64,000 nt of DNA from Sulfobacillus acidophilus (GTDB taxonomy: Bacteria; Bacillota; Sulfobacillia; Sulfobacillales; Sulfobacillaceae). Shown here piece by piece: positions 7,444 to 33,441 of this stretch (its first letter is position 1; each line of letters starts with the position of its first letter). Both the position numbers and the translations under genes were made by a program. The notes beneath the pieces were generated by a model. The model did not search any database, was not told the DNA's origin, and was given only the letters and a program-made list of their open reading frames with translations. The stretch is from contig PXYV01000003.1 in the NCBI GenBank assembly GCA_003023745.1, forward strand, positions 1 through 64,000, read 5' to 3'.

Positions 7444-7475
7444 CCTCACTTACCTCCTAAAAGTATCGGTGTGGG

Positions 7476-8318: not shown

Positions 8319-9130
8319 ACAATCGTTGCCCCCTCTTGCAAGCGGGTAAGCCAGGCCTCGATTAATTGATCAGCCCCATCTGGGAAAGCATCGACGTAAT
8401 CTTGCAGTGCCAACGCATCCATCCGATATGCAGGATAACAGGACGTGGGCCACGCACCACCGGGCGCATGTACCACCGCGTTGACCGAGCGGCCAATGAT
8501 GCCGCAGTCGCTAAGCCGCGGGTCGTCGGGCGCGACCACTTCCTCCGCGGATACGACGGTGTAATCCGCCAACAAGGCCAACTCTCGGTCGACGCCACGA
8601 TTGGTGTAAATGACGGCGTTTCCTTCTGTGTCACAAATGGGCACATGAATTAAGGTGACATCCGGTCGAAGCGCTGGGATGGCTGGATACTCTTCTCCGG
8701 TGTAAGGACACGTCACCCGCTTAATGTCAGGGCGCACATCCATAAGATCTGTACCCAGCAAGGTTCTCGCTGGCATGAAACCGACATTCTGAAGGGCGGC
8801 ACGAAGGCCGAGACCCATGGTACTCTCGGTTTCTTCAATCACGGACACGCGTCCCGACTCCACCATTTCCCGGAACCGCGGGGCCATCCCGAAGAGGTCT
8901 AATCCAATGTAGGCACTGCGAATCGTGCTCACAACGTCGGGCCGATTTAATAGGAGCTCGGTTTCGATGCCCAGAGTCCAACCAATCAGGGCAAGACGGG
9001 AGGCCCTCTGTCGGATGAGTTCGGCCACCAAAATCATGGGGCGTCGATAGGTCAGCATGCCGCCGATAGCTACGCTGGCACCCGAAAAGACGGGACTGAC
9101 CGCATCCTTCAGACTACGCACCTTATTCAT
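8315..9130 (-). CDS. Class I CoA-transferase alpha-like subunit (GctA/IpdA-like)
   Basis: This 271-residue partner of the preceding subunit has the N-terminal glycine loop SVAIGGMLTYRRPM, LIGWTLGIETELL, then VIEETESTMGLGLRAA, FMPARTLLGTDL, CPYTGEEYPAIPALRPDV, HVPICDTEGN and VVHAPGGAWPTSCYP. The cluster Glu99-Glu100-Glu102 falls in the region where IpdA carries its functional Glu105. ATG 9130 is chosen because the longer frame starts well inside the upstream gene. It overlaps the hydroxyacyl-CoA dehydrogenase stop by 8 nt, indicating translational coupling. Together the two subunits should form an alpha/beta heterotetramer acting on a cyclic or dicarboxylic CoA ester. Confidence 0.82.
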   Translation of the reverse strand: MNKVRSLKDAVSPVFSGASVAIGGMLTYRRPMILVAELIRQRASRLALIGWTLGIETELLLNRPDVVSTIRSAYIGLDLFGMAPRFREMVESGRVSVIEETESTMGLGLRAALQNVGFMPARTLLGTDLMDVRPDIKRVTCPYTGEEYPAIPALRPDVTLIHVPICDTEGNAVIYTNRGVDRELALLADYTVVSAEEVVAPDDPRLSDCGIIGRSVNAVVHAPGGAWPTSCYPAYRMDALALQDYVDAFPDGADQLIEAWLTRLQEGATIV

Positions 9131-10004
9131 GGCGAGAGGCCTCGTTTGGCGCGTACGAGTAAAACCCCTCGCCAGTTTTCTTGCCGAACCGTCCCGCATC
9201 TACCAACTCCTGAAGAATCGCCGGGGGTCTGAACTCCGACGCACGGGTCTGCTCAAAGAGCGCCGTGGTCGCGTGCAAGTGCACATCCAAACCAATTTGG
9301 TCTAGGAGTTTGAGCGGCCCCATGGGGTATCCCAGACCCAACTCCACTGCGACGTCAAGGTCTTCACGGGTCGCCAGGTCGTGGTCGAAGGCATCCATGG
9401 CCTGGTTGAGGTACGGCAGGAGCAGGCGATTCACTAAAAAGCCGGGACGATCTTTGACCACGACCGGCGTTTTCCCGATAGCGTGGCAAAACGCTTTGGC
9501 TTGATCGATAAGTTGATCCGAGGCATTCAAGGGTTTGACCACCTCGACCAACCGCATCAAAGGCGGTGGGTTAAAGAAATGCAAACCAATTAACGGACTA
9601 GGAAAGTCAATCCCTTGCGCGATTTGATGAATGGGCAGAGCGGAAGTGTTGGTGGCAAGAATAGTCGACGCACGGACATGCCGGACCAATTCTTCAAACA
9701 CCGCACGTTTGACGTGAAGATCTTCAAAAACCGCTTCGATGATAAGATCAGCGTCCCGCAATTCGTCTAGCGCTGTCGAGGTGCGAATGGCCCTCATGAC
9801 CGTCTCGATTTCATCGGGACTCGTTTTCCCTAACACCACTCCTCTGTTCATGAAGTGACGCATGCGCTCGAGCCCTTCCTCAACACGGGTCATAGTGGTC
9901 TCAACGGCCGTCACCAGAAACCCATGACTCGCAACCACTTGAGCGATACCGCTGCCCATAGTGCCCAACCCAATAACTCCAATGTTCCAATTTAGCTTAC
10001 CCAC
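9123..10004 (-). CDS. 3-hydroxyacyl-CoA dehydrogenase (HAD/FadB family), copy 1
   Basis: This 293-residue NAD-dependent enzyme oxidises 3-hydroxyacyl-CoA to 3-oxoacyl-CoA. The Rossmann loop GVIGLGTMGSGIAQ lies at the N-terminus; EAVFEDLHVKR, ATNTSALPI, the catalytic GLHFFNPPPLMRLVEVV (His and Glu of the dyad) and DRPGFLVNRLLLPY follow. The C-terminal dimerisation domain carries GLGYPMGPLKLLDQIGLDV and GRFGKKTGEGFYSY. I choose GTG 10004 (GGCAGGAGT upstream); this removes an implausible 23-residue extension and gives an 8-nt overlap with the preceding gene. The size is that of the short single-function HbdA/paaH type. Its immediate neighbour is a paralogue. Confidence 0.93.
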   Translation of the reverse strand: MGKLNWNIGVIGLGTMGSGIAQVVASHGFLVTAVETTMTRVEEGLERMRHFMNRGVVLGKTSPDEIETVMRAIRTSTALDELRDADLIIEAVFEDLHVKRAVFEELVRHVRASTILATNTSALPIHQIAQGIDFPSPLIGLHFFNPPPLMRLVEVVKPLNASDQLIDQAKAFCHAIGKTPVVVKDRPGFLVNRLLLPYLNQAMDAFDHDLATREDLDVAVELGLGYPMGPLKLLDQIGLDVHLHATTALFEQTRASEFRPPAILQELVDAGRFGKKTGEGFYSYAPNEASRHE

Positions 10005-14819: not shown

Positions 14820-16184
14820 TTACAACTCCAAGGTCTCTAACGACCTCCGTGACATGCGCCGAGCAAAAAGCAATACAAATACAATAGCAATCAAAAACCC
14901 AATAGCCATCGCAAACCATGCTCCGAAAAAGTTCCCTGTTCCTGCCACACCAAGAATAATCGCCGGTGCCAATGCTGCACCAATGTGCCCCACTCCATCA
15001 CTAGCTGCTAGAGCGCTATTTCGCCCTTCGGCAGGAAAATGCTCCACCGTCAGAGTGTACGCCAATGGTGTAAAAATCATAGAGCCGCTTGCTAAAAGAA
15101 ATGTGCTAACATAAATCACCAAAACTCTCGGTGCAACTCCCACCAGGAGAGTAGATACCATCAGGATAGTTAATATCGTGGCCACCCACCATTTTCGCTC
15201 CCAAAGATCCGAGATGACTGGTGCTACGAATGCGGCTACAATATATCCCGCACTGGCCGCTAACCAAAACGTAATGGTCGCTGCAATGCTAAACCCATGC
15301 ATGACTAATAATGTCGGTCCAAGGCCGAACCAGGAGTAATCGGCAGCCAAAAAGAAAATCCAAAAACCAATAAACGCTGCAAGAATTCCACCATACTTCC
15401 GATTTAACAGTGCAGCCCATGAAAATCGACGGTTTTCGGTGCTTTTCCCATTCATCGAAGGTTCGGTCGGAGGCAACTCTCCTACTCGTTGCCGTGCACG
15501 CACCTCAAGAGTAGCCACTAGATCTTGTGCTTCTTGAAAGCGGCCATGATGCACCAACCACCGAGGTGATTCAACCATTAAACGAAAACCTATCAATACT
15601 GATACAACAGCTACGACCGGAATGGCCAACATGGCTCGCCAGCCCCAGACATAATGCGGTACAAATAACAAGGCTAAGGGAGGAACGACGGCCACGGCCA
15701 ACGAACCGTACATTGAGGCCCATCCGGCATAGCGCCCTCGGATTTTTGCGGGAGCCAACTCCGTAATATAGGGTGTCGTCGCATCTAGGGCCCCTGCAAT
15801 GCCCATCCCGGCCACAAATCGCGACACGTCTAACCACAGCATACTAGGACTCAACCCAGCCGCTAACGAACCAACACCGACAAGGACGAAAGAGATTCCT
15901 AAACTGTACCGTCGACCAAAATAATCACCTATGGTACTCGTAATTAAGGCACCCGCCACATACCCCACAAGGCCTGTACTAAAAGCTACAGACGCTACCG
16001 CCGCTGTTACGTGAAACTGTTTAGCAATAATAGGTAAAGTAAACCCAATATTGGTCACATCGAATAATGCGAAAAAATATCCGATACCGATCATAACCAA
16101 TAAAATTCGGGGATATGGCCAAATAGGAATTCGGTCTAATCTAGCCAAAATATCTCCACCGAGTTCGGACTCCGTTCCCATCAT
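14820..16184 (-). CDS. MFS transporter (sugar/aromatic-acid porter type)
   Basis: This 454-residue integral membrane permease has about 12 hydrophobic segments split 6+6 by a central cytoplasmic loop (about residues 215-250). The MFS signature between TM2 and TM3 is GDYFGRRYS, followed by the RFVAGMGIAGALD helix. ESPRWLVHHGRF before the central loop is the sugar-porter-type PESPRW motif. It would import the substrate of the surrounding pathway, or a product, by proton symport. AAAGGAGG precedes the ATG. It is the only transporter in the cluster, which makes it the natural candidate for uptake of the organic acid, but its specificity is not readable. Confidence 0.9.
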   Translation of the reverse strand: MMGTESELGGDILARLDRIPIWPYPRILLVMIGIGYFFALFDVTNIGFTLPIIAKQFHVTAAVASVAFSTGLVGYVAGALITSTIGDYFGRRYSLGISFVLVGVGSLAAGLSPSMLWLDVSRFVAGMGIAGALDATTPYITELAPAKIRGRYAGWASMYGSLAVAVVPPLALLFVPHYVWGWRAMLAIPVVAVVSVLIGFRLMVESPRWLVHHGRFQEAQDLVATLEVRARQRVGELPPTEPSMNGKSTENRRFSWAALLNRKYGGILAAFIGFWIFFLAADYSWFGLGPTLLVMHGFSIAATITFWLAASAGYIVAAFVAPVISDLWERKWWVATILTILMVSTLLVGVAPRVLVIYVSTFLLASGSMIFTPLAYTLTVEHFPAEGRNSALAASDGVGHIGAALAPAIILGVAGTGNFFGAWFAMAIGFLIAIVFVLLFARRMSRRSLETLEL

Positions 16185-16334: not shown

Positions 16335-16793
16335 TTAGGGCAAATCTGCGTTCTCCAACTCTACTTCAACGTCTTCTGGCAAAACTACACTAGCCTCGGC
16401 AAATGTTGTCACTCTCTGCGAATTGCGCCCCGTCAAGGCCAACTGAACTATTCGCGCCCCCTCTCGTGCAAGATGAATCTTGGAGACTTTTCCTGTTATC
16501 GTAAATTCGTCGTTTACCAAATCGACACCACGATACGACACGTTCAACTCCCGCAAGCTCGCTTGGAATCCTCCCCATTGTTGAATCACCTGCGCTATCC
16601 AGCACGCCTTTAAGGAACCGGGCACAACGACTCCGGGAAATCCATTAGCCCGAGCATAATCAGCATCGTAATGAATTTCATAAAAGTCTCGAGTAACTCC
16701 AGCAAACATGACTAGTTGCCGCGACGACGGCCTTACGATACTGTCTGACAGCAACACACTCCGCGGTTCTCTGCCACCATTTCCCTTCAACAT
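16335..16793 (-). CDS. MaoC-like hot-dog hydratase subunit
   Basis: This 152-residue hot-dog-fold protein of the MaoC dehydratase family carries the hydratase-2 signature FAGVTRDFYEIHYD, with the Asp and His spacing of (R)-specific enoyl-CoA hydratases, followed by GFPGVVVPGSLKACW. The downstream neighbour (16922-17344) is a second hot-dog protein of the complementary N-terminal type. Pairs of this kind form heterodimeric or heterotetrameric hydratases, as ChsH1-ChsH2 do in steroid side-chain degradation. The catalytic half is this one. Its ATG follows GGGGGGTGAAAAGGTA. It is likely co-transcribed with the acyl-CoA dehydrogenase and thiolase-fold genes upstream. Confidence 0.85.
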   Translation of the reverse strand: MLKGNGGREPRSVLLSDSIVRPSSRQLVMFAGVTRDFYEIHYDADYARANGFPGVVVPGSLKACWIAQVIQQWGGFQASLRELNVSYRGVDLVNDEFTITGKVSKIHLAREGARIVQLALTGRNSQRVTTFAEASVVLPEDVEVELENADLP

Positions 16794-16921
16794 TACCTTT
16801 TCACCCCCCTTCGTTACACTTCACGGTTCAACTCGCCAATAACACTCTTCCTTCCCAAATAACGAAAGCTTACTCGTCCACGAGGATGTCTTTTTATTAC
16901 GTCTTTTAACTCAACAACTCG

Positions 16922-17344
16922 TTATCGCATGATTAAGGTATGTTGACGTTCACCGACTAGGTCGTCGCGTTGATTCCGATAGTCGGTCGCATACGTCAAA
17001 ATCAGCAATGGTCCGTGTTGTCCGTTAGCTGCCCGAACCTCTATCAACCGTGTAACAGTCGCAATAACGTCGCCGGCTTGGATCGGCCCTTGCCACTTAA
17101 AAAAATCACCCCCGTTTAAAACACTCGAACCAAATCGAATCCCATTATTCGGATATTCGGTGGGTATGCCACATAAAATCATGGACGGCGCTACCACCCC
17201 GCCATCTTTTCTCGTCTCGATCGACACATCCGTTGCTCTCCTAAATGCCTGAATGGCATCATAGCTAACTTGATAAACTGAGAAACGATAAACTCCGCCC
17301 ATCATTTTCTGAGCCATAGCCAAAGCCTGATTAATGTCGTCCAT
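16922..17344 (-). CDS. MaoC N-terminal-type hot-dog protein (non-catalytic hydratase half)
   Basis: This 140-residue protein resembles the FAS1-type dehydratase N-terminal family (hot-dog fold). It has YQVSYDAIQAFRRATDV, VVAPSMILCGIPTEYP, LNGGDFFKWQGPIQAGDVI and LILTYATDYRNQR. The Asp-x-Asn/Tyr-x-x-His active-site motif is absent, as expected for the substrate-binding half of a split double-hot-dog enzyme. ATG 17344 has AGGAGG four bases upstream. It lies between the catalytic hot-dog subunit and an acyl-CoA dehydrogenase. The best reading is a heteromeric enoyl-CoA hydratase acting on a bulky substrate. Confidence 0.8.
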   Translation of the reverse strand: MDDINQALAMAQKMMGGVYRFSVYQVSYDAIQAFRRATDVSIETRKDGGVVAPSMILCGIPTEYPNNGIRFGSSVLNGGDFFKWQGPIQAGDVIATVTRLIEVRAANGQHGPLLILTYATDYRNQRDDLVGERQHTLIMR

Positions 17345-17444
17345 AATGCCTCCTCTTTACAGCGACTAAGTCGCTAACATTCTTTAAACCTAAAACCTAA
17401 CGAACTCCATCTTCTCTACCCCTAATGATTAATGTTAAACGTGA

Positions 17445-18698
17445 TCAAAATTCCATGTCGCCCCGAAGTAACTGTCGGGCAATGGTACGTCGATGAATTT
17501 CGCCAGTGCCATCCGGAATGCGCACTACCCGAGCCCATCGATAAGCCGCTTCCAGACGAAAATCATTGGTTAGTCCCAAACCACCATGAATTTGGATTGC
17601 CCGGTCAATGACCCGACCAGCCATTTCAGTATTGAAGGCTTTGGCAATGGAAATATCCTTAATAACTGATTGGCCTTCTTCAAGTTTCCGTGCGCATCGT
17701 AGAGCAATGCTGCGACCGGCCATTATATCCATGGCGCATTCACCCAACATCAATTCGATAACTCCATGCTGTGCAAGGGGTTTGCCAAATGCTTCCCTTT
17801 GCTGAGCGTATGAAACACTAAGTTCAAGGGCCCATCTAGCCAACCCTACACATTTGGCACTTAGTCCTAATCGACCCGCATTCACTCCGGCCAGAGCTAG
17901 TCTAAGCCCTTCTCCTTCCAAGCCCAAAACTTGGTCATCAGGCACGAACACTTTATCAAACGAAAGCGAGCCCAAATCTCCTCCCTGATGCCCCATAAGG
18001 GGAATCACAGGGCCTCGCGAAACCCCTGACTCCGTTAAATCTACCAAAAACGCCGTAATACCTCCTTCATGTGCTCGCGCTTGCTCCCGATTGGTCACGG
18101 CAAAGACCATTCCATAATCAGCATAAGGAGCATTTGTAATCAGGTGTTTTTGCCCATTGAGAACCCAACCGTTGGATTGGTGGATTGCATTGCACTGGAT
18201 CCCCCAAACATCTGAACCGGCTTGCGGTTCCGTAAGAGCAAAACAGAGAGTTTTTTCCCCTGTCGCAACACTTGGCAACACTGTTTTTCGCAACAACGGA
18301 TGAAGACCCAACAAAACCGGCGATAAACCATTAGAAAACGGCGACGGAACTACAACATCTTCAATGAGAATCCGCTGCGGTCCATACTTCTGAGCGATCG
18401 CTTCATAAACATGAAACGCCGTCGAGGCAGTGATCCCACCACCGCCGAGTTCTTTCGCCCCGAACATAGTATAAAATCCGGCCAGCGACGACATCTTGCG
18501 AATTTCCTTGCGCGCTGCTAAAATTTCCTTTACGTACTGTCCTCGCTCATCAAACAATCTACGTTCGTTCTGCATGATGGAAGCAAACCGCTTTTCGAAT
18601 CCCAGAACCTCCTGTTCAATAAATCGAGTTACCGCTTCTATAATTTGACGGGTTTCGTCGGATGTTTCAGATTGCCCTCTTTGTTCGCCGTCATTCAT
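17445..18698 (-). CDS. Acyl-CoA dehydrogenase 2 (Asp at base position)
   Basis: This 417-residue FAD acyl-CoA dehydrogenase has FALTEPQAGSDV in the middle beta-domain, LITNAPYADYG, FVPDDQVLG, QQREAFGKPLAQH, IHGGLGLTNDFRLEAAYRWAR and the end RIPDGTGEIHRRTIARQLL. The Y-E-G-T element of short-chain enzymes reads IPDGT, with Asp396 at the base position. The isovaleryl-type base position is Gly (GVNAGRLGL). The R-x-x-D-G-x-x-E-x-H-R pattern is that of the ACAD10/11-like and several steroid-type FadE proteins. ATG 18698 has GGAGG nearby. Its neighbours are the split MaoC pair on one side and the DUF35/thiolase-fold pair on the other, the same functional set that trims steroid side chains. Confidence 0.9.
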   Translation of the reverse strand: MNDGEQRGQSETSDETRQIIEAVTRFIEQEVLGFEKRFASIMQNERRLFDERGQYVKEILAARKEIRKMSSLAGFYTMFGAKELGGGGITASTAFHVYEAIAQKYGPQRILIEDVVVPSPFSNGLSPVLLGLHPLLRKTVLPSVATGEKTLCFALTEPQAGSDVWGIQCNAIHQSNGWVLNGQKHLITNAPYADYGMVFAVTNREQARAHEGGITAFLVDLTESGVSRGPVIPLMGHQGGDLGSLSFDKVFVPDDQVLGLEGEGLRLALAGVNAGRLGLSAKCVGLARWALELSVSYAQQREAFGKPLAQHGVIELMLGECAMDIMAGRSIALRCARKLEEGQSVIKDISIAKAFNTEMAGRVIDRAIQIHGGLGLTNDFRLEAAYRWARVVRIPDGTGEIHRRTIARQLLRGDMEF

Positions 18699-18844
18699 CC
18701 TTTTTTCTCCTCCCTACATTCGCGGTCAAAATCCTTCTTTCTCGGACATACCAATACTTCTCAGACTCTTTGTCCAATAACCCTACACCACGTAACCCTC
18801 CCACCTTGCGGAAAGGGCCAGAATAGCTCGTCACCCTAAAGACT

Positions 18845-19264
18845 CTATTCGACATTAAAAACATCACTTATCGGCACAAAATCTGGGAATACGGTTCCTT
18901 CTGCCGGTGTAAACCGTATAATGACTGGCATGCCAATATACATCCTGCTCGGTTCGACATCGATATAACTTAACATGCGAACGTTATTTTCAACCTCAAT
19001 TAGAGCAACAACATAGGGCAGTTTGGTAGCCCAATACTCATCTGACGATCGATAGCACACTGTGTAGCTATAAACAGTGCCTTTGCCACTTAACTCTACC
19101 CATGTCAACACATTTGAAAAACAGCGAGGACAAATGGAGCGAGGGTAATAAATATAAAGGCCACAGGCGGAACATCGTGGAATACTTAACCGCCCCTGCC
19201 GTAAATGGTCCCAAAAGTTTTGTGAATCGTGATCAACCACCGGCACACGGCGCCCATTCGCCAT
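18845..19264 (-). CDS. DUF35 OB-fold protein with zinc ribbon
   Basis: This 139-residue protein has an N-terminal rubredoxin-like zinc ribbon, CSACGLYIYYPRSICPRC, followed by an OB-fold (GTVYSYTVCYRSS, LPYVVALIEVENNVRMLSYI, PVIIRFTPAEG). DUF35 proteins are partners of thiolase-fold enzymes: they close the active site of the Ltp2 retro-aldolase and assist HMG-CoA-type condensations in archaea. ATG 19264 is chosen; it lies 2 nt after the stop of the thiolase-fold gene and just after GGGGGTGGATT, so the two are translationally coupled. The longer frame to 19375 is rejected because it would lie inside that gene. A CoA-binding accessory subunit is the confident call. Confidence 0.9.
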   Translation of the reverse strand: MANGRRVPVVDHDSQNFWDHLRQGRLSIPRCSACGLYIYYPRSICPRCFSNVLTWVELSGKGTVYSYTVCYRSSDEYWATKLPYVVALIEVENNVRMLSYIDVEPSRMYIGMPVIIRFTPAEGTVFPDFVPISDVFNVE

Positions 19265-19266
19265 AA

Positions 19267-20430
19267 TCAATCCACCCCCAATAAAACAACCGCGGAAGAA
19301 GATAATGAACCTCCGGTACCTGCTGTTACACCTAATGAAGCCTTGGGTATTTGTCGCACACCGCCTCGACGCCACATCTGTCGCGCGGCCTCAATAAGTA
19401 AGAAAATACCGTACATCCCCGGATGAGCATACGCTAGCCCTCCTCCGTTGGTATTAATAGGAAACTCGCCACCGGGTGCTGTGCGTCCATTATGAAAAAA
19501 TTCCCATCCTTGACCCTTTTCGCATAACCCCAATGCTTCTACGGTTAACATCACAGTAATGGTAAAAGAGTCATAGATTTCAGCAAACTCAAGGTCTTCC
19601 GGACGAATACCAGCACGACTAAAAGCTTGGACACTGGCTGCATAGGCTGGTGGGTGTGTTAAGTCATGCATTGATGCCATCACAATGTGATCATATGCTT
19701 CTCCATACCCTAAGATCCAAATCGGCCGATTGCGGCAATCTCGCGCCCTCTCAGCGCTAGTCAGCACTATCGCCCCCCCGCCGTCTGTAACAAGACAACA
19801 ATCAAGCAAGTGCAATGGGGAACAGATCATCGGCGAGTTCAGAACATCTTCAACTGTAATAGGTGTTCTTAGGGTCGCCTGAGGATTGAGTTCGGCCCAT
19901 CGTCGTATGTTAACAGCGACCTCCGCCAAATCTTCTTCCCGCGCCCCAAATTCATGCAAGTAACGCGTTGCCGCTAACGCGTATCCACCGATAGGCGAAG
20001 GCAATCCAAACGGTGTTTCGAATTGTTGCATTAAAACGGGCGGACGTCCCGCTAAATTCCGACTTTTTCGTGATTTTTGTATACTGCCATAACAAATAAG
20101 TGCCACTTGGCAGTAACCCGCATGGATGGCAGCCGCCGCATGACCCACCATGGCTTCAAATGCAGCACCTCCAATATTTGAAGTGTCGACATAGCGCGGA
20201 TACAAACCTAAATAATCACTAACTGCAACGCCCATCATGAGGCCAGGACCTGGTAGCCCCCAATCACCGGTTACGAACAATCCATCCACGTCCCGATGAG
20301 TCAGTCCGGCATCCTCTAACGCTCGCTTCGCGGCTACTGCCTGTATTTCGAGTTCGGTCAAACCGCCGACCACATACCCTTTCTCTAATTCTACGTCACC
20401 CACTCCGACGATAGCTACTCGTCGTTCCAT
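19267..20430 (-). CDS. Thiolase-fold lipid-transfer-protein-like enzyme lacking the nucleophilic Cys (Ltp2-like aldolase?)
   Basis: This 387-residue protein has the thiolase fold of the SCPx/lipid-transfer type: AIVGVGDVELEKG, AKRALEDAGL, DVDGLFVTGDWG, DTSNIGGAAFEA, LLDCCLVTDGGGAIVL and NGGGLAYAHPGMYG. At the position of the thiolase acyl-enzyme Cys the sequence reads SNIGG (residues 84-88), so no thiolytic nucleophile is present. The usual NEAF motif is AEIYDSF, which puts Tyr286 in the active site. These are the hallmarks of Ltp2-type retro-aldolases, which cleave a beta-hydroxyacyl-CoA to a ketone or aldehyde plus acetyl- or propionyl-CoA and need a DUF35 partner. Such a partner is encoded 2 nt downstream. 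Confidence 0.85.
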   Translation of the reverse strand: MERRVAIVGVGDVELEKGYVVGGLTELEIQAVAAKRALEDAGLTHRDVDGLFVTGDWGLPGPGLMMGVAVSDYLGLYPRYVDTSNIGGAAFEAMVGHAAAAIHAGYCQVALICYGSIQKSRKSRNLAGRPPVLMQQFETPFGLPSPIGGYALAATRYLHEFGAREEDLAEVAVNIRRWAELNPQATLRTPITVEDVLNSPMICSPLHLLDCCLVTDGGGAIVLTSAERARDCRNRPIWILGYGEAYDHIVMASMHDLTHPPAYAASVQAFSRAGIRPEDLEFAEIYDSFTITVMLTVEALGLCEKGQGWEFFHNGRTAPGGEFPINTNGGGLAYAHPGMYGIFLLIEAARQMWRRGGVRQIPKASLGVTAGTGGSLSSSAVVLLGVD

Positions 20431-20588
20431 GTCCCTTCCCCTCTCTTATCACGAGGTCCGACTCATCTCGGTAATGTTCTTAATCAGGTTTATGTCAATC
20501 TCACCTCGGCTAAGTTTTGCCATGGCCCTGTAGCCCACGGGCACAACTATTCTCCGGCTCGCCGGATCTACTGCAGCTTACACTTGCT

Positions 20589-21437
20589 TTATGGAGAAGT
20601 TATCAAAGTGGGCAATTGCAATGTAATCTCTTCAACAGACCAGCCACCATCGCTCACTAAGACGCGCAACGGTTGGGGATTAGACCATAAGGTTATCGTT
20701 TTCCCATCAAACCCCCACGTAGTTCCCGTAATCGCCCCTGCATTCTCGCCAGCCAAGTACACTACTAAAGGTACCACTTGCTCTGGGGTGCCGGGAGAAA
20801 AAGAGGAGCCGCCCACGCCTTGTTCAGTATTGCGCGCCGTGACTGCAGCCGGAATTGTCATGGTCATTGCCGTCACCGCCGAGGGTGAAATAGCATTTAT
20901 TGTGATCCCATACCTCTCTAATTCTTTAGCGAGCGTACGCGTCAATCCTAGAATGCCAGCTTTAGCCGCCGCATAATTGCACTGACCAACATTCCCCAAC
21001 ATTCCTGATCGAGAGGTAAAGTTAATAATACGCCCATACGATTGCTGTCGCATGTTTGGAAGGACTGCGCGAATATTGGCGAAGGTTCCCTTTAAATGCA
21101 CACGGATCACATCGTCCCATTCCTCTTCAGTCATGTTCCAACTCATACGATCCCGTAAATTGCCAGCGACATTAACCAAAATATCTACTCGTCCAAATTC
21201 CGCTACGGCCGTATCCCGCAGTTGTTGTCCCATTTCCATGGTTCCCACTGCACCGCCGACCGCCCGTACTCTGCCTCCCTGCGCACGGATTTCATCTGCA
21301 GTCTGTTGGAGACCCTCCAACATAATGTCATTAATAATTACCGCAGCTCCTTCGCGTGCTAACAATTGCGCGGTTGCTTTACCTAATCCTCCCGCAGCCC
21401 CTGTTATAATAGCCACCCGATCCTTTAACAGTGCCAT
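20589..21437 (-). CDS. SDR family oxidoreductase 3 (multifunctional-enzyme-2 type)
   Basis: This 282-residue SDR with an extended C-terminus resembles the (3R)-hydroxyacyl-CoA dehydrogenase domain of peroxisomal multifunctional enzyme 2. It has AIITGAAGGLGKATA, IINDIMLEG (NAD-type acidic residue after beta2), VDILVNVAGNL (NVAG in place of NNAG), the FTSRSGMLGNVGQCNYAAAKAG active site with Ser, Tyr and Lys, and NAISPSAVTAMT. ATG 21437 is chosen; the GGAGGG box is a little distant (about 13 nt). An R-specific dehydrogenase would fit downstream of the MaoC-type (R)-hydratase encoded by the same operon, giving a coherent hydratase/dehydrogenase/aldolase set. Confidence 0.88.
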   Translation of the reverse strand: MALLKDRVAIITGAAGGLGKATAQLLAREGAAVIINDIMLEGLQQTADEIRAQGGRVRAVGGAVGTMEMGQQLRDTAVAEFGRVDILVNVAGNLRDRMSWNMTEEEWDDVIRVHLKGTFANIRAVLPNMRQQSYGRIINFTSRSGMLGNVGQCNYAAAKAGILGLTRTLAKELERYGITINAISPSAVTAMTMTIPAAVTARNTEQGVGGSSFSPGTPEQVVPLVVYLAGENAGAITGTTWGFDGKTITLWSNPQPLRVLVSDGGWSVEEITLQLPTLITSP

Positions 21438-21488
21438 ATCGTTTTGTTCTCCCTCCTTCAATGCGAACGATGCTTAATCTCAACGAAC

Positions 21489-23156
21489 TTAGTCGCTTTG
21501 AGTCGATTGTTCTTGAGCTAATTTTTTCGTGATATAATCGGTAAGTTCTGCCTTTTTTACCTTACCCATGCTGGATTTCGGCAACGCATCAACAATTTCC
21601 AACCGCTCAGGAAGTTCCCAAATCGCGATCCTGTGGTCTTTTAAAAATCCAATCATCTCTTCAAATGTCAGATTTTGACCAGCATTTAATACTACAAAAG
21701 CGCACGCCCGTTCCCCTAATACGGGGTCGGGCATTGCTGCAACGGCACAATCTTGAACAGCAGGGTGCACAATCAATAGTTCTTCCACCGTCCGTGCACT
21801 AATATTGCGCCCGCCCCGGAGAATCATGTCCTTTTTGCGGCCCACGATTCGCAAATAACCATCTTCGTCAAATACCCCTATATCCCCACTTTGAATCCAC
21901 CCATTATGGAATAAACGCAAAGTCTCGTTATCATCATTTAGATAACCGAAGGACTTCTCCGGAGTACGCCAGCACACTTCACCCCACTCGCCCTGCGGAA
22001 GCGGATGATACTGGTCATCCCACACTTCACATTCACACCCGGACAAAATCCGCCCCACCGTTCCCCAACGTTTTTCAGGCGGATCATCAATACTTGTCAT
22101 CGTGGGTACCCCACCATCACTGGCCCCGTAGACGGTATGAACTCTACAGCCAAACTGGTGTTCCACTTCTTTAGCAACCTCTGGAGGCAATGGTGCCCCT
22201 GCATTGTTAAACCGAGAAAATGCTTCCCAATTGAATCGAGTTCCTAGTTCCGGAATTAACATAAGTTTGATCATCTGACTGGGTATGGCTGTTGCATACG
22301 TACAATGATAAGTTGCCATTAAACGTAATGCATCCTCAGGGTCTGCCCAACGTTCAAGCATAACTACGCGGGCACCAATCAATAATGGCGTCAGAACGGG
22401 AAAAACATATCCTGTTCCACCGGTACCCGGTGGAGCTATCGCACCTGCAACATCATCACTCCCCAACTTCATGGTTTCACAAAAATGGCGCAACAAGGTC
22501 GCATTAAAATTATTATCGGTATATATAGACATTTTTGGCAGTGCTGTCGTTCCTGAAGACACAATGACCATGCATGGCTCATTGGCAGAATGGAGTCGAT
22601 TCCCTTTCTCATCTGACTTCATGGTCAACGGTGTTGCCTGACCCATTAAGATATCCCATGACTGCCACCCCCGAGTGGTCCCGTGGATTGTCATCTTAAG
22701 GCGAAGATTTGTCATCTCCTCCTTGGTAATTAATTCATCTATCATCGCGGCATAGTTAAAACCTCGATAGCAATGAGGAACCATAATGGCCTTTGCTTGA
22801 CTCTTGCGCAAAAGATGTCCCGCTTCCGTCTCCCGCCACCCGTCATGTATGGGGAGAAAAATTGCACCGATCACATTGCACGCCAAATGAATCACGGGCA
22901 GTTCTACCCATCCCGGCAATTGTGCCGCGACTACATCGCCAGCTTCAATGCCAAAATTCGCAAAGACACTGGCTAGTCGCCCAACTGCTTGGTAAAGGTC
23001 GCCATAAGTATATTGGCCGTGAGTATCAATGACAGCTATTTTAGAAGCAAACTGTTGCACAACAGTTGTAAAATGGTCGATTAACGTTTCGTCACTCCAT
23101 AAGCCCAATTTTCGGTATCGTTCTTCATCAACTGCCGAGTGAAATCCAACACTCAT
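21489..23156 (-). CDS. Acyl-CoA ligase (AMP-forming), cyclohexanecarboxylate/aryl-CoA ligase-like
   Basis: This 555-residue ANL-superfamily ligase activates a carboxylate with ATP and joins it to CoA. The motifs are VSSGTTALPKMSIY (P-loop; Ala-Leu-Pro-Lys in place of Gly-x-Pro-Lys), HTVYGASDGG (A5), GDIGVFDEDGYLRIVGRKKD (A7/A8 hinge), RGGRNISARTVEELL and the C-terminal LPKSSMGKVKKAEL with the catalytic Lys. The overall look is that of the DhbE/AliA group acting on cyclic carboxylates. Its ATG follows AGGAGGGAAAACCCG. It is the only ligase in the window, so it probably performs the entry activation, while the three CaiB proteins may recycle CoA later. Confidence 0.9.
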   Translation of the reverse strand: MSVGFHSAVDEERYRKLGLWSDETLIDHFTTVVQQFASKIAVIDTHGQYTYGDLYQAVGRLASVFANFGIEAGDVVAAQLPGWVELPVIHLACNVIGAIFLPIHDGWRETEAGHLLRKSQAKAIMVPHCYRGFNYAAMIDELITKEEMTNLRLKMTIHGTTRGWQSWDILMGQATPLTMKSDEKGNRLHSANEPCMVIVSSGTTALPKMSIYTDNNFNATLLRHFCETMKLGSDDVAGAIAPPGTGGTGYVFPVLTPLLIGARVVMLERWADPEDALRLMATYHCTYATAIPSQMIKLMLIPELGTRFNWEAFSRFNNAGAPLPPEVAKEVEHQFGCRVHTVYGASDGGVPTMTSIDDPPEKRWGTVGRILSGCECEVWDDQYHPLPQGEWGEVCWRTPEKSFGYLNDDNETLRLFHNGWIQSGDIGVFDEDGYLRIVGRKKDMILRGGRNISARTVEELLIVHPAVQDCAVAAMPDPVLGERACAFVVLNAGQNLTFEEMIGFLKDHRIAIWELPERLEIVDALPKSSMGKVKKAELTDYITKKLAQEQSTQSD

Positions 23157-23195: not shown

Positions 23196-24161
23196 TCAAG
23201 CACCGGTTTTCACAGCTTGGAAATCGTCAGATGACGGGACCAGCACATGGCTGATGCGTCCCGGCAATTTATGGCCCACCATATCCTCCGCCAATTTGAC
23301 ACATGCAACTAATCGTCCTAGATGTAATCCGGTTTTAATCCCCATCTTTTCACACAAAAATGCTACATCTTCGGTTGGCACATTGCCGGCAGCTACGCCG
23401 CTAAAAGGACATCCGCCCAATCCGCCAATAGCTGTTTCATATTTTTGTACTCCTGCGAGCAATCCCGCATACACATTAGCCATGCCCATTCCTCGAGTAT
23501 CATGAAGGTGCAAAGATAACCGCAAATGCGGCCACCGTTGCCAAATCGTATCAACCGTACGACGAATTTGTTCTGGATCAGCCCATCCCATAGTATCTGC
23601 GAGGCAAAGATCCTGTAGACTATCTCCCGCAGAGCGTGCTAAATCCATCAATAATCGACAACGTTCCAATACCCTTTGTATCGATATGGCTCCTTCATAA
23701 TTGCATCCAAAAGCAGCCATCACGACTCCCTCAGTCACCGGAGTGGCATGGGCGTGATATTCATTAATCAGATAACGTTGCTCATCTAAATCTTGGTCGA
23801 GAGTTCTCCGCACATTCGCCATCGCAAATGCATCACTGGCGCTAAGTAGAATACGCCCTGTAATCTTATACTTTTGTGTTGCCAATGCCCGAGCCAGTCC
23901 TCGTCGGTCCAGATACACCGCATTGAACGTAACGTCCGGAATCAGCTGCAACATACTACTCACGTTCTCGGCATCGGCCATCTGAGGAACTGCTCGGGGA
24001 CTAACAAAAGATGTTACTTCAATGGTTTTAATTCCTGCTCTCGCCAACGCATACACTAGCCGAACTTTCTCATGTGTCTTCCAGTGCAGGGGGTCGTTTA
24101 TCCCCTCAAACTGGGCCCCCTCCCGCGGCCCGACTTCTTTAATTTCGACCGAATTAACCAT
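23196..24161 (-). CDS. HMG-CoA lyase-like enzyme
   Basis: This 321-residue TIM-barrel DRE-metallolyase cleaves a 3-hydroxy-3-alkyl-glutaryl-type CoA ester by retro-Claisen chemistry. It keeps the N-terminal GPREG (Arg13; the usual following Asp is Glu14), VTSFVSPRAVPQMAD, LADTMGWADP, the metal-binding LHLHDTRGMGMAN (His218, His220) and the catalytic loop GGCPFSGVAAGNVPTED with Cys251 and Asn260. Length matches HMG-CoA lyases of leucine degradation. The D-to-E change next to Arg and a Phe after the Cys-Pro suggest a substrate other than plain HMG-CoA, perhaps a longer branched acid from the pathway. GGGAGG precedes the ATG. Confidence 0.88.
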   Translation of the reverse strand: MVNSVEIKEVGPREGAQFEGINDPLHWKTHEKVRLVYALARAGIKTIEVTSFVSPRAVPQMADAENVSSMLQLIPDVTFNAVYLDRRGLARALATQKYKITGRILLSASDAFAMANVRRTLDQDLDEQRYLINEYHAHATPVTEGVVMAAFGCNYEGAISIQRVLERCRLLMDLARSAGDSLQDLCLADTMGWADPEQIRRTVDTIWQRWPHLRLSLHLHDTRGMGMANVYAGLLAGVQKYETAIGGLGGCPFSGVAAGNVPTEDVAFLCEKMGIKTGLHLGRLVACVKLAEDMVGHKLPGRISHVLVPSSDDFQAVKTGA

Positions 24162-25691: not shown

Positions 25692-26945
25692 CTATTCCAA
25701 GAACAACAACCCGGGTTCCTGCAATCGTGACATAATATACGCTAAAAACCGCCCCGCTTGTCCGCCATCATTAACCCGATGGTCAAATGTCAAAACAACC
25801 GGAAGCATAAGATGAGAGACTACGCGGTTGTCCTCACTCAATATTAACTGCGACCGTGCTCGTCCTATGCCCAAAATCGCTACCTGAGGGTAATTGACGA
25901 GCGCCGTTGCAAATAGTGCCCCCACGGCACCATAATTCGAAATAGTAAAGGTCCCCCCTAATAGTTCTGATGGAGATAACCCTCGCGAATGAGCCTTGCG
26001 GGCAAGTTCGGTAATCTCTTGTGCAATATCTCCTATGTTCTTACGGTCAGCACCTCGAATGATTGGCACAATGAGTCCTTCGTCAGTATCCACAGCTATC
26101 CCAATGTCATAGTCCCATAACAACACGACTTCTTGTCCCTCGTCGTCCATTACAGCGTTAAAAGTGGGGAATTTTTTGAGTGCTCCGACAACAGCCTTCA
26201 CAACGAAAGGTAGATATGTAAGATGAGGTGAATTGTTGGGGGCCACTGTTGAAATCCGATTTTTCCATTCTGCGAGCGACGAAATGTCCGCCAATTCACA
26301 AACAGACACTTGAGGAGCAGTAAAAGCCGACCGCACCATTCGTTCAGCCGTCACCCTTCGAATCCCGCGTAGTGCTATTCGCGTTGGTTGTACTACATTT
26401 GCACTTGTAATCAAATCGGTGGGTTTCTCATAGATTCCCCCTATTTCAGAAACTTTTAAGACATCCTCTCGAAGTATACGGCCTTTAGGCCCTGTCCCCC
26501 TAACGCGAGAGAGGTCAACGCGTTTTTCTCGTGCCAATGTACGCACCGCAGGTGAAGCCAAAACATCGTAAGTTTGTCCTGAATCCTTGCGGAACTCTTC
26601 ATTGCCCCTTATATCACCTGTTGATAGACTAATCGCCACCTCTTCTTTAGGGTGATTGTTCTCATCTTTTGACTGTATTACACCTATTACCTGGGAAGAG
26701 TCGCCAGCAGGAACATCGAACTCAACTAACACTGTACCCACTTTAACCACATCACCCACCGCAGCATTTAATGCCAAAACAACGCCTTCCACGGGTGAAG
26801 GAATCTCTACAGCTGCTTTATCAGTTTGAATTTCGACCAGTGGTGACTCTTTACGTGCAATTTGGCCTTGCTCAACTCGCCAGGCTAGTATTTCTGCTTC
26901 TTGAATACCCTCGCCGACATCAGGAAGTTTCCAAAAAAAGTTCAT
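25692..26945 (-). CDS. Dihydrolipoyl acyltransferase (E2) of a 2-oxoacid dehydrogenase complex
   Basis: This 417-residue E2 core protein has one N-terminal lipoyl domain with the lipoylated Lys43 in IQTDKAAVEI, a linker, then the peripheral-subunit-binding domain SPAVRTLAREKRVDL...GTGPKGRILREDV (about 130-162). The C-terminal catalytic domain carries the His/Asp motif FDHRVNDGG. The single lipoyl domain and sequence style are those of branched-chain/acetoin-type complexes. The E1 alpha and beta genes lie upstream in the same direction, interrupted by a CaiB gene. No E3 (lipoamide dehydrogenase) occurs in the window; it must come from elsewhere. The complex would convert a 2-oxoacid to its acyl-CoA. 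Confidence 0.93.
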   Translation of the reverse strand: MNFFWKLPDVGEGIQEAEILAWRVEQGQIARKESPLVEIQTDKAAVEIPSPVEGVVLALNAAVGDVVKVGTVLVEFDVPAGDSSQVIGVIQSKDENNHPKEEVAISLSTGDIRGNEEFRKDSGQTYDVLASPAVRTLAREKRVDLSRVRGTGPKGRILREDVLKVSEIGGIYEKPTDLITSANVVQPTRIALRGIRRVTAERMVRSAFTAPQVSVCELADISSLAEWKNRISTVAPNNSPHLTYLPFVVKAVVGALKKFPTFNAVMDDEGQEVVLLWDYDIGIAVDTDEGLIVPIIRGADRKNIGDIAQEITELARKAHSRGLSPSELLGGTFTISNYGAVGALFATALVNYPQVAILGIGRARSQLILSEDNRVVSHLMLPVVLTFDHRVNDGGQAGRFLAYIMSRLQEPGLLFLE

Positions 26946-27116
26946 GTTTATCCTTCGCCCTTCCTATTACATTCACAAACTCAGCGTTGTTGAGCCAAGC
27001 ACACCATTATTTCTTGCTTTATAACCCAAAACGAGCGCTGATTAAAAAACTGCGCATACAAAAATGTACAACTCCTGGAAAAAGGTAGACTCCCCTCACA
27101 TATGACTTGAATGAAA

Positions 27117-28307
27117 TCAATTGACAACGCGCTTCTGCTTAAGACGATTGATCTCATCCGGTGGGTACCCAAGCCATCCTAATACTGCAGTGGTGTGTTC
27201 ACTGAGTTGAGGTGGCCAATGTCTAACGTCAGCACGTTGGCCATCAATTCTTATTGGCAAGTCTACCCACTGGAACCCGGGAATTCGAAAGTCACGTGAG
27301 GATTTTATTAACTCCAGACTGTTAACTTGTACATCACGACATACTTCTGCAACAGAGTGGATAGGGGAACAAGGTACACCCACAGCCTGTAATCGGTCTA
27401 CCCAGTAACTTGTTGTTCGCTGCTCGTGGAACAAAAGACCTTGGATTTCCTCATGCAATTCACTGCGATGCATGACGCGTAAATCATTACTGGCAAACTT
27501 GGCGTTATTATCTAGCTGACTATCCAAAGCCGTGCATAGCTTACGAAATAAGGTATTATTACCAGCTGCGATCATAATCCATCCGTCGTGGGTGCGAAAT
27601 GCTTCGTAAGGCGCAGCCATAGGCGCAACACTCCCCATTTTTGCGGGAACACTACCTTCGGCCAGATAGTTGGTAATTAGCAGTTGCATCCATGCGACAC
27701 CTGTCTCTAATAAACTCGCTTGTACATACCGAGACGTATCGGTACGCTTATCGAGCACGACCGCCAGTGCCCCCATTGCTGCCCACATACCTGTAGCGAG
27801 ATCGATTATCGACACGCCCACTCGTGCAGGGTCGCATTTCGGGTCACCATTCACGCTCATAATTCCCGTATAAGCCTGTAATATCGCATCATAGCCAGGA
27901 AGATTTTCGTTAGGCCCGCCAACGCCGTACGCACTAACCTCCACATAGACTAAATTTGGGTACAGATGCCGCAGAGATGCAAAATCTAACCCCAACTTGC
28001 GTGCCGTAGACGTACGAAAACTCTGTACCACAATATCAGCGCGTTCCAACAACTTGCGGATGATTTGAGGGCTTTCAGGATGATGGAGGTCAAGGCACAC
28101 GCTTTCTTTATTGCGATTTAGTGCAAGGAATGTCGTAGATTCACCATTCCACTGCGGCGGGAACCACCCACGAGTATCATCGCCCGCATAAGGGCGTTCA
28201 ATTTTTATGACGCGTGCACCCAAATCGCCTAAGATCTGCGTGCAGTAAGGACCTGCCACATTCTGAGTGAAATCAATGACCACTTTCCCTTGCAAAGGCT
28301 GGTTCAT
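27117..28307 (-). CDS. CaiB-like class III CoA transferase 3
   Basis: This 396-residue class III CoA transferase has VVIDFTQNVAGPYCTQILG, LGARVIKIERPYAGDDTRGW, LNRNKESVCLDLHHP, LVYVEVSAYGVGGP, GYDAILQAYTGIMSVNG, and the catalytic Asp in IIDLATGMWAA. The C-terminal domain is complete (WVDRLQAVGVPCSPIHS). ATG 28307 or the GTG just before it, preceded by TTAGGGGGC, avoids overlap with the E1-beta stop; the longer frame is rejected. Oddly, this gene is inserted between the E1 and E2 genes of the 2-oxoacid dehydrogenase, suggesting that the acyl-CoA product of that complex, or its free acid, is a CoA donor or acceptor. Confidence 0.9.
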   Translation of the reverse strand: MNQPLQGKVVIDFTQNVAGPYCTQILGDLGARVIKIERPYAGDDTRGWFPPQWNGESTTFLALNRNKESVCLDLHHPESPQIIRKLLERADIVVQSFRTSTARKLGLDFASLRHLYPNLVYVEVSAYGVGGPNENLPGYDAILQAYTGIMSVNGDPKCDPARVGVSIIDLATGMWAAMGALAVVLDKRTDTSRYVQASLLETGVAWMQLLITNYLAEGSVPAKMGSVAPMAAPYEAFRTHDGWIMIAAGNNTLFRKLCTALDSQLDNNAKFASNDLRVMHRSELHEEIQGLLFHEQRTTSYWVDRLQAVGVPCSPIHSVAEVCRDVQVNSLELIKSSRDFRIPGFQWVDLPIRIDGQRADVRHWPPQLSEHTTAVLGWLGYPPDEINRLKQKRVVN

Positions 28308-28329
28308 CACCCAATTGCCCCCTAACTCT

Positions 28330-29310
28330 TCAATATTCCAAAAGCATGCGTAGAGTCCTTTCAACCCGGGCGCTATTTGGTAACCACTCACGCTCTAACT
28401 GCGCAACGGGATACGGCGTATCATACCCACAAACACGCATGGGTGGTGCTTCCATGCGGTAAAAGGCCTCCGCCATAATACGTGAAATGATCTCGGCTCC
28501 AACGCCGGCCGTTCGAACAGCCTCATGCACTACCAGGACTCGACCGGTCTTGGTCACCGAAGCAATAATTGTTTCTTCATCTAGAGGACTCAACGTACGT
28601 ACATCAATGACTTCGATAGTGCTCCCCGTGGCTTTTTCCACTGAAAGGACAGTTGGGATAATCCATGCGCCAGGACTCCCCCAATAAATAACCGTCAGAT
28701 TCATACCTTCGTGAACTACCCGGGCTTTACCTAGAGGTTCGAAATACACTTCCGAAGGCACTTCCTCACGAAACGCACGATATAGCGGCATGGGCTCTAA
28801 AAATATCACCGGGTCAGGATCAGCAATGGCTGAGAATAACAGACCTTTGGCATCAAATGGACGACTTGGCACTACCACCTTTAGGCCAGGACTATGCACA
28901 AAAAACGTCTCAAGAGAATCGGAATGCAATTCTGGCGCACCAATGCCACCCCCGTAAGGAGCTCGAATGACCAACGGCACAGTAAAGTGTCCTAACGATC
29001 GTGAACGCAATCGTGCTGCTTGAGTAATTATTTGATGAAACCCGGAGCATATAAACCCGAGAAATTGAATTTCCGCAACCGGATGTAGTCCGTTCATGGC
29101 AAGCCCTACCGCACTACCTAAAATGGCTGACTCCGAAAGTGGCGTATCGACCACACGGTCTTCGCCAAACTGTTCAAATAAATCCTTTGTAACTCGAAAT
29201 ACTCCTCCATTTCGCCCGATGTCTTCACCCAGTAAGATAACCGTGTCATCTTGCGCCATCGTTTGCATTAAAGCCTGGTTAATAGCTTGCGCCATCGTTA
29301 GTTCAGCCAT
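28330..29310 (-). CDS. 2-oxoacid dehydrogenase E1 beta subunit
   Basis: This 326-residue beta subunit of the thiamine-diphosphate E1 heterotetramer has AINQALMQTMAQDDTVILLGEDIG split over its N-terminal helix and strand, GVFRVTKDLFEQFG, TPLSESAILGSAVGLAMNG, IRAPYGGGIGAPELHSDS (including the invariant His), SRPFDAKGLL and the C-terminal DVRTLSPLDEETI and VVHEAVRTAGVGAEI. All fit the branched-chain or acetoin E1-beta family. ATG 29310 is chosen on a GAGGTGCAACAGG leader; it overlaps the E1-alpha stop by 8 nt, so the subunits are translationally coupled for 1:1 assembly. Confidence 0.93.
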   Translation of the reverse strand: MAELTMAQAINQALMQTMAQDDTVILLGEDIGRNGGVFRVTKDLFEQFGEDRVVDTPLSESAILGSAVGLAMNGLHPVAEIQFLGFICSGFHQIITQAARLRSRSLGHFTVPLVIRAPYGGGIGAPELHSDSLETFFVHSPGLKVVVPSRPFDAKGLLFSAIADPDPVIFLEPMPLYRAFREEVPSEVYFEPLGKARVVHEGMNLTVIYWGSPGAWIIPTVLSVEKATGSTIEVIDVRTLSPLDEETIIASVTKTGRVLVVHEAVRTAGVGAEIISRIMAEAFYRMEAPPMRVCGYDTPYPVAQLEREWLPNSARVERTLRMLLEY

Positions 29311-30352
29311 CCTGTTGCACCTCACTCTCCTGCTGTTTGAGATCCGTCGTCTGAGAGTAGAACACATGGTGGAATACACTTGCTAAACGTGATGGAGGCT
29401 TGTCATTGGCACGTTGCCATGCATCATCAACCCGTTTGCGAATTTTATTAATGAGCGCGTCATCCTCCGATTCCGACCACTGGTGATACCGTATTAAGTA
29501 AGATTTAGCTCGGATTAGCGGGTCAAGTTGCCTCCACCGGTCGACTTCATCATCAGTCCGGTAACGACGCGGATCATCTGCCGTCGTATGCGCATCTAAT
29601 CTATATGTCACTGCTTCAATTAACACCGGCTGGTATGTTTCGCGCATTTTTTCTGTGACGTCCTTAACCGTTTGATATACGGCCAATACGTCATTCCCAT
29701 CAATCCGAAATGAAGGCAAGCCATACGCACTGGCCTTGTCTGCAATACTTTCAACAGCCGTTTGCCGGGCAAAGGGAGTACTAATGGCCCACTGATTATT
29801 TTCACAGAAGAACACCACGGGAACTTGGAATACGGCGGCCATATTTACAGCTTCGTGAAAATCGCCCTTGGATGTCGCTCCATCACCAAAATAACACAGC
29901 GAGATTTGTGGCTCCCGGCGTAACTTCGTAGACCATGCGACCCCAACAGCATGTGGAATTTGCGAAGCAACCTCTACTGCGGGTGGAACGACGTGAACAT
30001 GTATGTCTGACGGCGTCAACCACCGTTCTTGATGGCCCATCAGCCATAAAAACACACTATCAATAGGAATCCCAGCCACTATCGCCGCCCCTAAGTCCCG
30101 ACCATAAGGAAATAGCCAATCGTTTTTTTGTAGGACGCTCGCACTTCCAACCTGGGCCGCTTCCTGACCTAATCCCGATGCATAGGTGCCCAAAAATCCT
30201 TGACGCTGAAGTACCGTAGCCTTGTGCTCAAAGACTCGACAGGTCACCATAAGTTCGTACAGTGCTAAACATTCAGTACGTTCTAACGCAATCTCTTTGC
30301 CTTCCGTTAGTTCTCCTTCTTTATTAACATACTGGATCCAGTCTTTGGCCAC
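29303..30352 (-). CDS. 2-oxoacid dehydrogenase E1 alpha subunit
   Basis: This 349-residue thiamine-diphosphate-binding alpha subunit has the TPP motif GDGATSKGDFHEAVNMAAVF...CENNQWAIST (GDG to NN). ASGLGQEAAQVGSASVL, FPYGRDLGAAI, VASQIPHAVGVAWS and the phosphorylation-loop-like TYRLDAHTTADDPRRYR identify a branched-chain-type E1. GTG 30352 sits behind GGGGAGGAACCCGAA. The complex decarboxylates a 2-oxoacid. Within this cluster the 2-oxoacid might be released by an aldolase step or be a branched 2-oxoacid feeding CoA starters. Which one cannot be decided from sequence. Confidence 0.93.
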   Translation of the reverse strand: MAKDWIQYVNKEGELTEGKEIALERTECLALYELMVTCRVFEHKATVLQRQGFLGTYASGLGQEAAQVGSASVLQKNDWLFPYGRDLGAAIVAGIPIDSVFLWLMGHQERWLTPSDIHVHVVPPAVEVASQIPHAVGVAWSTKLRREPQISLCYFGDGATSKGDFHEAVNMAAVFQVPVVFFCENNQWAISTPFARQTAVESIADKASAYGLPSFRIDGNDVLAVYQTVKDVTEKMRETYQPVLIEAVTYRLDAHTTADDPRRYRTDDEVDRWRQLDPLIRAKSYLIRYHQWSESEDDALINKIRKRVDDAWQRANDKPPSRLASVFHHVFYSQTTDLKQQESEVQQDG

Positions 30353-33302: not shown

Positions 33303-33441
33303 TGGGTATCCTCCTCTGCATGGATATAGTTTTCTGCGCCCGTTTTCAATTGCTATCTCGAGTGCCATCGAACTCTTCGACGATTTGATTTTGTGAACAC
33401 GCTCAATGCGATTCTTCTTCGGGTTGGCCCAATCTCTATAC

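Follow-up and report, generated by a model that had tools for sequence, protein, structure and literature searches.

A Cys-less thiolase-fold protein with a DUF35 partner, predicted to be an acyl-CoA retro-aldolase, in a gene island of Sulfobacillus acidophilus

Aldolases of the thiolase fold and a related protein in Sulfobacillus

Two acyl-coenzyme A (CoA) aldolases built on the thiolase fold have been characterised biochemically: TcLtp2, which acts with the DUF35 protein ChsH2 on the steroid C3 side chain (PDB 6ok1), and CtSal, which acts with the DUF35 protein Shy on the C5 side chain of bile acids (PDB 9myr). In TcLtp2 the base is Tyr294 of a YDHF motif and the acid is Tyr344, whereas CtSal relies on Tyr302 and Cys304 of a YDCY motif and carries Gln352 at the Tyr344 position (PMC12329534). 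A further Cys-less protein of this fold, IpfD, is required for the degradation of ibuprofen (PMC9195938). Here we describe a related protein from Sulfobacillus acidophilus, encoded on a 64,000-nucleotide stretch of contig PXYV01000003.1 (hereafter, the window), and argue that, together with the DUF35 protein encoded next to it, it is probably an acyl-CoA retro-aldolase. The two genes are:

19267-20430, minus strand: Cys-less thiolase-fold protein, predicted acyl-CoA retro-aldolase (387 aa; Gly88, Y286-D-S288-F, His336 in AHPGM)
18845-19264, minus strand: DUF35 partner (OB_ChsH2; 139 aa), a zinc ribbon with four Cys (CSAC...CPRC) plus an OB fold; PF12172 and PF01796 above cut-off

The window protein shares with CtSal the Gly at the position of the nucleophilic Cys, the catalytic Tyr, a DUF35 partner, a MaoC neighbour and membership of the same superclade (see below). 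However, the YDCY motif with its catalytic Cys304 and Gln352 is replaced here by YDSF and His336, and Shy is a fusion of DUF35 to MaoC, whereas the window has a gene for each, with a hydratase that looks split. TcLtp2 is similar in its Gly loop, catalytic Tyr, DUF35 protein and split hydratase with one inert half, but differs in its YDHF motif, in the use of Tyr344 as the acid, in belonging to a separate clade, in the fusion of MaoC and DUF35 within ChsH2 and in its steroid substrate. The IpfD/IpfE pair of the ibuprofen pathway (plasmid pIBU218) likewise combines a Cys-less thiolase fold with an adjoining OB-fold protein in a CoA pathway; IpfD belongs to the Ltp2 clade, though, and acts on aryl-CoA after ring dioxygenation, and there is no ring dioxygenase among the genes described here. 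A fourth relative, the structural-genomics entry 4u4e ('putative thiolase' of Sphaerobacter thermophilus), falls in the same clade as the window protein, at about 46-51% identity, and has the same GG loop, YDSF motif and His (in THPGM). It lends a structure, no function: in the open-access literature we found no functional paper on 4u4e and no functional work on the YDSF motif class.

Active site and phylogenetic position

When the protein was aligned with solved structures and with the Cys-type thiolases encoded in related genomes, Gly88 of T83-S-N-I-G-G88-A fell in the column of the nucleophilic Cys (ENACASG). Tyr286 of the Y286-D-S-F motif stands at the His of HDCF, where classical thiolases have the Asn of NEAF, while the catalytic His of the thiolase GHP motif is kept as His336. 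The Gly loop (SNIGG) in place of the Cys and the Tyr at the NEAF Asn had both been proposed in an initial annotation of the locus, and the alignment bears them out. A Cys elsewhere in the chain doing thiolase chemistry was also looked for; none occupies any catalytic thiolase position in the alignment, since column 88 holds Gly, the Cys column of HDCF holds Ser288 and the C-terminal CxG region reads GTGG. Gly87-Gly88, Tyr286, Asp287 and Phe289 are invariant in 96 family members, and the loss of the Cys is therefore no sequencing accident. His336 is present in 95 of the 96 and residue 288 is Ser in 76 and Ala in 20. The motif counts, those of Tyr286, Asp287 and Phe289 included, are partly selected because one of the two genome-scan patterns contained YD[SA]F. 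In sets gathered by similarity alone, YD[SA]F was found in proteins 40-51% identical to it from genomes related to that of the window and in one protein at 51% from the wider phylum; others, at ~45% and below, were of the YDCF, YDCY or HDCF types.

The AlphaFold model of the protein (predicted local distance difference test score, 89.6; predicted template modelling (TM) score, 0.91) retrieved, in Foldseek searches, 4u4e, CtSal (9myr) and TcLtp2 (6ok1) as the best three PDB entries, with TM scores of 0.85-0.90, ahead of all thiolases. The same entries were matched by sequence, with E-values of 7e-111, 3.8e-65 and 1.2e-51, respectively. In a maximum-likelihood tree of 49 rows, Cys-type thiolases were set apart from a Cys-less superclade (37 rows, support 100/100) that includes TcLtp2, CtSal and IpfD. 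The window protein was excluded both from the Ltp2 clade (7 rows, 98/88), which includes IpfD, and from the Sal clade (5 rows, 100/100), and fell together with 4u4e into a third clade (24 rows, 100/99). The pattern of the latter is Tyr286, Ser or Ala at 288, and the His of GHP (His336) where TcLtp2 has Tyr344 and CtSal has Gln352. The protein shares the fold and the superclade of the steroid aldolases and is neither Ltp2 nor Sal; its sequence assigns it to a third class of active site. The initial view of a retro-aldolase-type, Cys-less protein with a DUF35 partner thus agrees with its grouping with TcLtp2 and CtSal, apart from the Cys-type thiolases. Of the more specific likeness to Ltp2, the Tyr stands and the rest does not, as TcLtp2 has Y-D-H-F and Tyr344 against Y-D-S-F and His336 here, and the tree keeps the protein out of the Ltp2 clade.

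IpfD of pIBU218 (L113:3983-5137) carries the Ltp2 motif set (YDHF plus Tyr). Because it is a member of the Ltp2 clade, this clade is not steroid-specific, and because it is needed for ibuprofen degradation, the Cys-less superclade also serves non-steroids. The tree further contains unnamed plasmid proteins (L116-L118, L121 and L122) with YDCF or YDCY motifs, for which we know of no function.

In the predicted pathway, a ligase would make the CoA ester, an acyl-CoA dehydrogenase (ACAD) would convert it to the 2-enoyl-CoA, and a two-part MaoC hydratase, with one catalytic and one non-catalytic half, would add water to yield the 3-hydroxyacyl-CoA. The aldolase would then cleave the C2-C3 bond, releasing acetyl-CoA or propionyl-CoA and a ketone or aldehyde. 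Such a cleavage would need no thiolase Cys and would suit substrates in which the 3-carbon, being tertiary or part of a ring, is not oxidisable to a ketone. Tyr286 would take the proton from the 3-hydroxyl, like Tyr294 of TcLtp2 and Tyr302 of CtSal, and His336, in the place of Tyr344 of TcLtp2, would reprotonate the enolate. Residue 288 probably does not serve as the acid, given that 20 of the 96 relatives have Ala there, and this tolerance makes His336 the candidate.

Several points weigh against the retro-aldolase assignment. The predicted function rests on relatives at 32-36% identity, as we found no clade member with tested activity, and His336 is equated with Tyr344 on the basis of a sequence alignment that has a gap immediately behind this His. 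The C304S variant of CtSal is inactive, so that not every scaffold tolerates a Ser there (PMC12329534). The neighbouring short-chain dehydrogenase/reductase (SDR) could make a 3-keto substrate, which would point away from retro-aldol cleavage. Finally, gaps of 100-146 nucleotides separate several of the genes, which do not form one tight operon.

Gene neighbourhood and alternative functions

The two genes lie in an island of CoA-thioester genes on the minus strand, spanning about 34 kb to 2.5 kb of the window. In the order of transcription, the ligase is followed by the SDR, the thiolase-fold protein, DUF35, the ACAD, the MaoC-like half, the MaoC half and a transporter of the major facilitator superfamily (MFS):

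23196-24161, minus strand: HMG-CoA-lyase-like protein, upstream neighbour (PF00682; PRK05692 244.9 bits, cut-off 246)
21489-23156, minus strand: acyl-CoA ligase (PF00501; PRK06087 389 bits, TIGR03208 319 bits)
20589-21461, minus strand: SDR, FabG/MFE-2-like (PF00106/PF13561)
17445-18698, minus strand: ACAD with Asp (IPDGT) at the position of the usual catalytic Glu (IYEGT) (PF00441/PF02770)
16922-17344, minus strand: MaoC-like half (FAS1_DH region) without the Asp/His dyad (PF13452 36.6 bits, cut-off 22)
16335-16793, minus strand: MaoC hydratase half with a D-x4-H catalytic dyad (RDFYEIH) (PF01575 37.2 bits, cut-off 27)
14820-16184, minus strand: MFS transporter, possibly for substrate uptake (PF07690/PF00083)

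All of the genes listed in the initial annotation (ACAD, split MaoC, SDR, thiolase-fold protein and DUF35) are present on this strand with family matches over the Pfam cut-offs, and the coordinates confirm that the ATG of DUF35 lies 2 nucleotides past the stop codon of the thiolase-fold gene. The annotated open reading frames (ORFs) of the 32-kb island yielded no further thiolase family gene. Shuffled sequences contained more promoter-like matches than the real sequence and only slightly fewer terminator-like ones, and we therefore make no argument from a tight operon. The nearest NCBIfam models of the ligase are medium-chain and cyclohexanecarboxylate CoA ligases, with scores below the model cut-offs. 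PDB searches with each of the two MaoC halves returned weak matches at most, the half at 16335-16793 showing weak similarity to HadB and ChsH1; that the two halves pair as one hydratase is therefore something we infer.

An alignment-based scan of genome contigs retrieved 587 relatives of the thiolase-fold protein, whereas a scan with the single protein retrieved none. Of 86 loci, drawn from several phyla, 84 have a DUF35 gene adjoining the thiolase-fold gene. The best PDB match of the window DUF35 protein is the DUF35 domain of ChsH2 (6ok1_B, E-value 1.3e-18), and in C. testosteroni the aldolase required DUF35 for its activity (PMC12502768). Orthologues of the ACAD (47-53% identical), all with the same Asp, directly follow DUF35 in six proteobacterial loci, and SDRs related to that of the window (38-48% identity) adjoin the thiolase-fold gene in several loci besides the window's. 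The fuller set of genes is present in an alphaproteobacterial metagenome-assembled genome. The locus L042 encodes, in succession, an SDR, a FAS1_DH-type half, a MaoC half, the thiolase-fold protein, DUF35 and an ACAD of the same Asp subfamily; another locus (L035), at a contig end, has this set without the SDR. The recurrence of the genes across phyla argues that they form a functional set. Culturable bacteria with the locus include Neobacillus, Paenibacillus and Polaromonas. Plasmid-borne relatives (45-58% identity) occur in varied CoA clusters of Polaromonas, Roseobacter-group bacteria, Achromobacter, Shinella and Streptomyces. Tentatively, and with rather less confidence than we place in the retro-aldolase function as such, we propose that the YD[SA]F-HPGM clade constitutes a third class of thiolase-fold acyl-CoA aldolase using a Tyr-His pair, and that the cross-phylum set of SDR, two-part MaoC, DUF35 and Asp-type ACAD breaks down alicyclic or beta-branched acids, which would be hydrated and then cleaved by a retro-aldol reaction, not by thiolysis.

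Within the phylum of the window genome, the protein is not the only Cys-less one of YD type with this fold, as Sal-type (YDCY) and YDCF relatives are encoded in other sampled genomes. Six of these proteins (L129, L130, L131, L132, L133 and L138) are of the Sal type, with YDCY or YDCYP and the Gln; to our knowledge, bile-acid aldolases are not usually discussed in this phylum. The window genome itself encodes, elsewhere (C96:31300-33612), a neighbouring pair of divergent thiolase-like ORFs whose motifs are unusual (L003 and L004), one with TETCGSTG and YNPF and the other without the usual Cys or GG loop.

Among the alternatives, Cys-free cleavage or formation of 3-ketoacyl-CoA (hydrolytic retro-Claisen reaction, decarboxylation or condensation), with the SDR feeding it as a 3-hydroxyacyl-CoA dehydrogenase, is unlikely, although the most probable of them. 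SDRs of the same type adjoin the gene in several loci, the near-invariant His of GHP would be in keeping with such chemistry, and the island encodes two 3-hydroxyacyl-CoA dehydrogenases. However, the two superclade members whose biochemistry has been characterised are aldolases, decarboxylation of malonyl-CoA was not shown by CtSal (PMC12329534), and the invariant Tyr is the aldolase base.

We regard a non-catalytic, CoA-binding or scaffolding subunit as very improbable. The catalytic Cys has indeed been lost and DUF35 complexes are known scaffolds (PMC12329534), but the strict conservation of the GG loop, Tyr286, Asp287, Phe289 and His336 across phyla speaks against such a role.

The initial annotation had assigned the genes, the SDR among them, to the removal of the steroid C3 side chain, a module of Ltp2, ChsH1, ChsH2 and ChsE. 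The categories of enzymes are indeed the same: an ACAD, one MaoC half with the dyad and one without, as in ChsH1-ChsH2, an aldolase-type thiolase fold, and a DUF35 protein most similar to ChsH2. In C. testosteroni and M. tuberculosis, however, this route employs two ACADs, ChsE1-ChsE2, and a ChsH2 in which MaoC is fused to DUF35 (PMC12502768). Neither feature of the igr-type module is present in the gene set described here, which has a single ACAD, most similar to short-chain and general ACADs with no ChsE among its top PDB matches, and DUF35 as a separate ORF; nor is an SDR a step of this route. The active site of the thiolase-fold protein also differs at two of the three positions discussed above. 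In the ~90%-complete genome, family-by-family searches gave no match to KshA_C or BphC_D1, an absence that is not final, and the best HsaA score, 53 bits against a cut-off of 450, is ordinary ACAD background. No steroid genes are in view in the CoA clusters of the plasmid relatives, and the loci of relatives show no steroid cluster. Given the exclusion from the Ltp2 clade, the single ACAD and the unmatched ring-degradation families, we rejected the steroid reading as having a very slim chance of being correct.

An ordinary thiolase with its Cys elsewhere in the chain is the least credible alternative of all: the protein scores 449 bits against NCBIfam PRK06158 (cut-off 421), a subfamily named acetyl-CoA acetyltransferase, and has other Cys residues, but in the family all 96 members have Gly in the nucleophile column, the Cys of HDCF is Ser or Ala, the CxG region is GxGG, and the most conserved Cys (212 and 303, in LDCC and LC segments) lie outside the catalytic motifs.

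The surrounding island, its likely substrate and implications

Besides the predicted retro-aldolase and its partner, the island encodes a BadI/MenB-type hydrolase-like protein, the relative of cyclohexanecarboxylate-type ligases, several CaiB CoA-transferases, the HMG-CoA-lyase-like protein and a CoA-transferase-fold pair. None of these passes a cut-off that names a pathway. A branched or alicyclic acid fits this gene content best as the presumed substrate, which is probably not a steroid. The GC content is 50.3% in the island (0.47 at third codon positions) against 55.1% (0.59) on the housekeeping side of the contig, and close relatives are lacking in most genomes of the same genus; together, these observations suggest that the island was acquired horizontally.

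The CoA-transferase-fold pair (7476-8318 and 8315-9133, minus strand) resembles glutaconate-CoA-transferase-family and IpdAB-type proteins. Its best PDB matches are several point variants of a single B subunit; at the position that distinguishes them the window sequence has Thr (LFTVGN), not Glu, so that the pair may not be a CoA transferase. In ten loci, most of them from the Roseobacter group, similar pairs are found beside the thiolase-fold gene. One crotonase-fold protein (6661-7449, minus strand) is nearly equally similar to MenB, which is ring-forming, and BadI, which is ring-opening, both below cut-off, and another (32466-33368, minus strand) matched only the general crotonase family. 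Genes for a 2-oxoacid dehydrogenase complex (E1, E2; 25692-30352, minus strand) are interrupted by a CaiB CoA-transferase within the island. A nitronate-monooxygenase/FabK-like gene (2568-about 3455, minus strand) is broken or misassembled, since a frameshift splits its N-terminal part from the rest.

Relatives of the window protein are encoded in several hundred genome stretches or more, and the annotated ones that we saw are labelled acetyl-CoA acetyltransferase or thiolase. Aldolases of the thiolase fold are wanted as catalysts of C-C bond chemistry, and since a structure of the clade exists in 4u4e, the Tyr-His proposal is open to direct test. If the retro-aldolase reading is true, the current annotation of these relatives would be wrong in kind, and the non-thiolytic exit from beta-oxidation would extend beyond steroids and ibuprofen.

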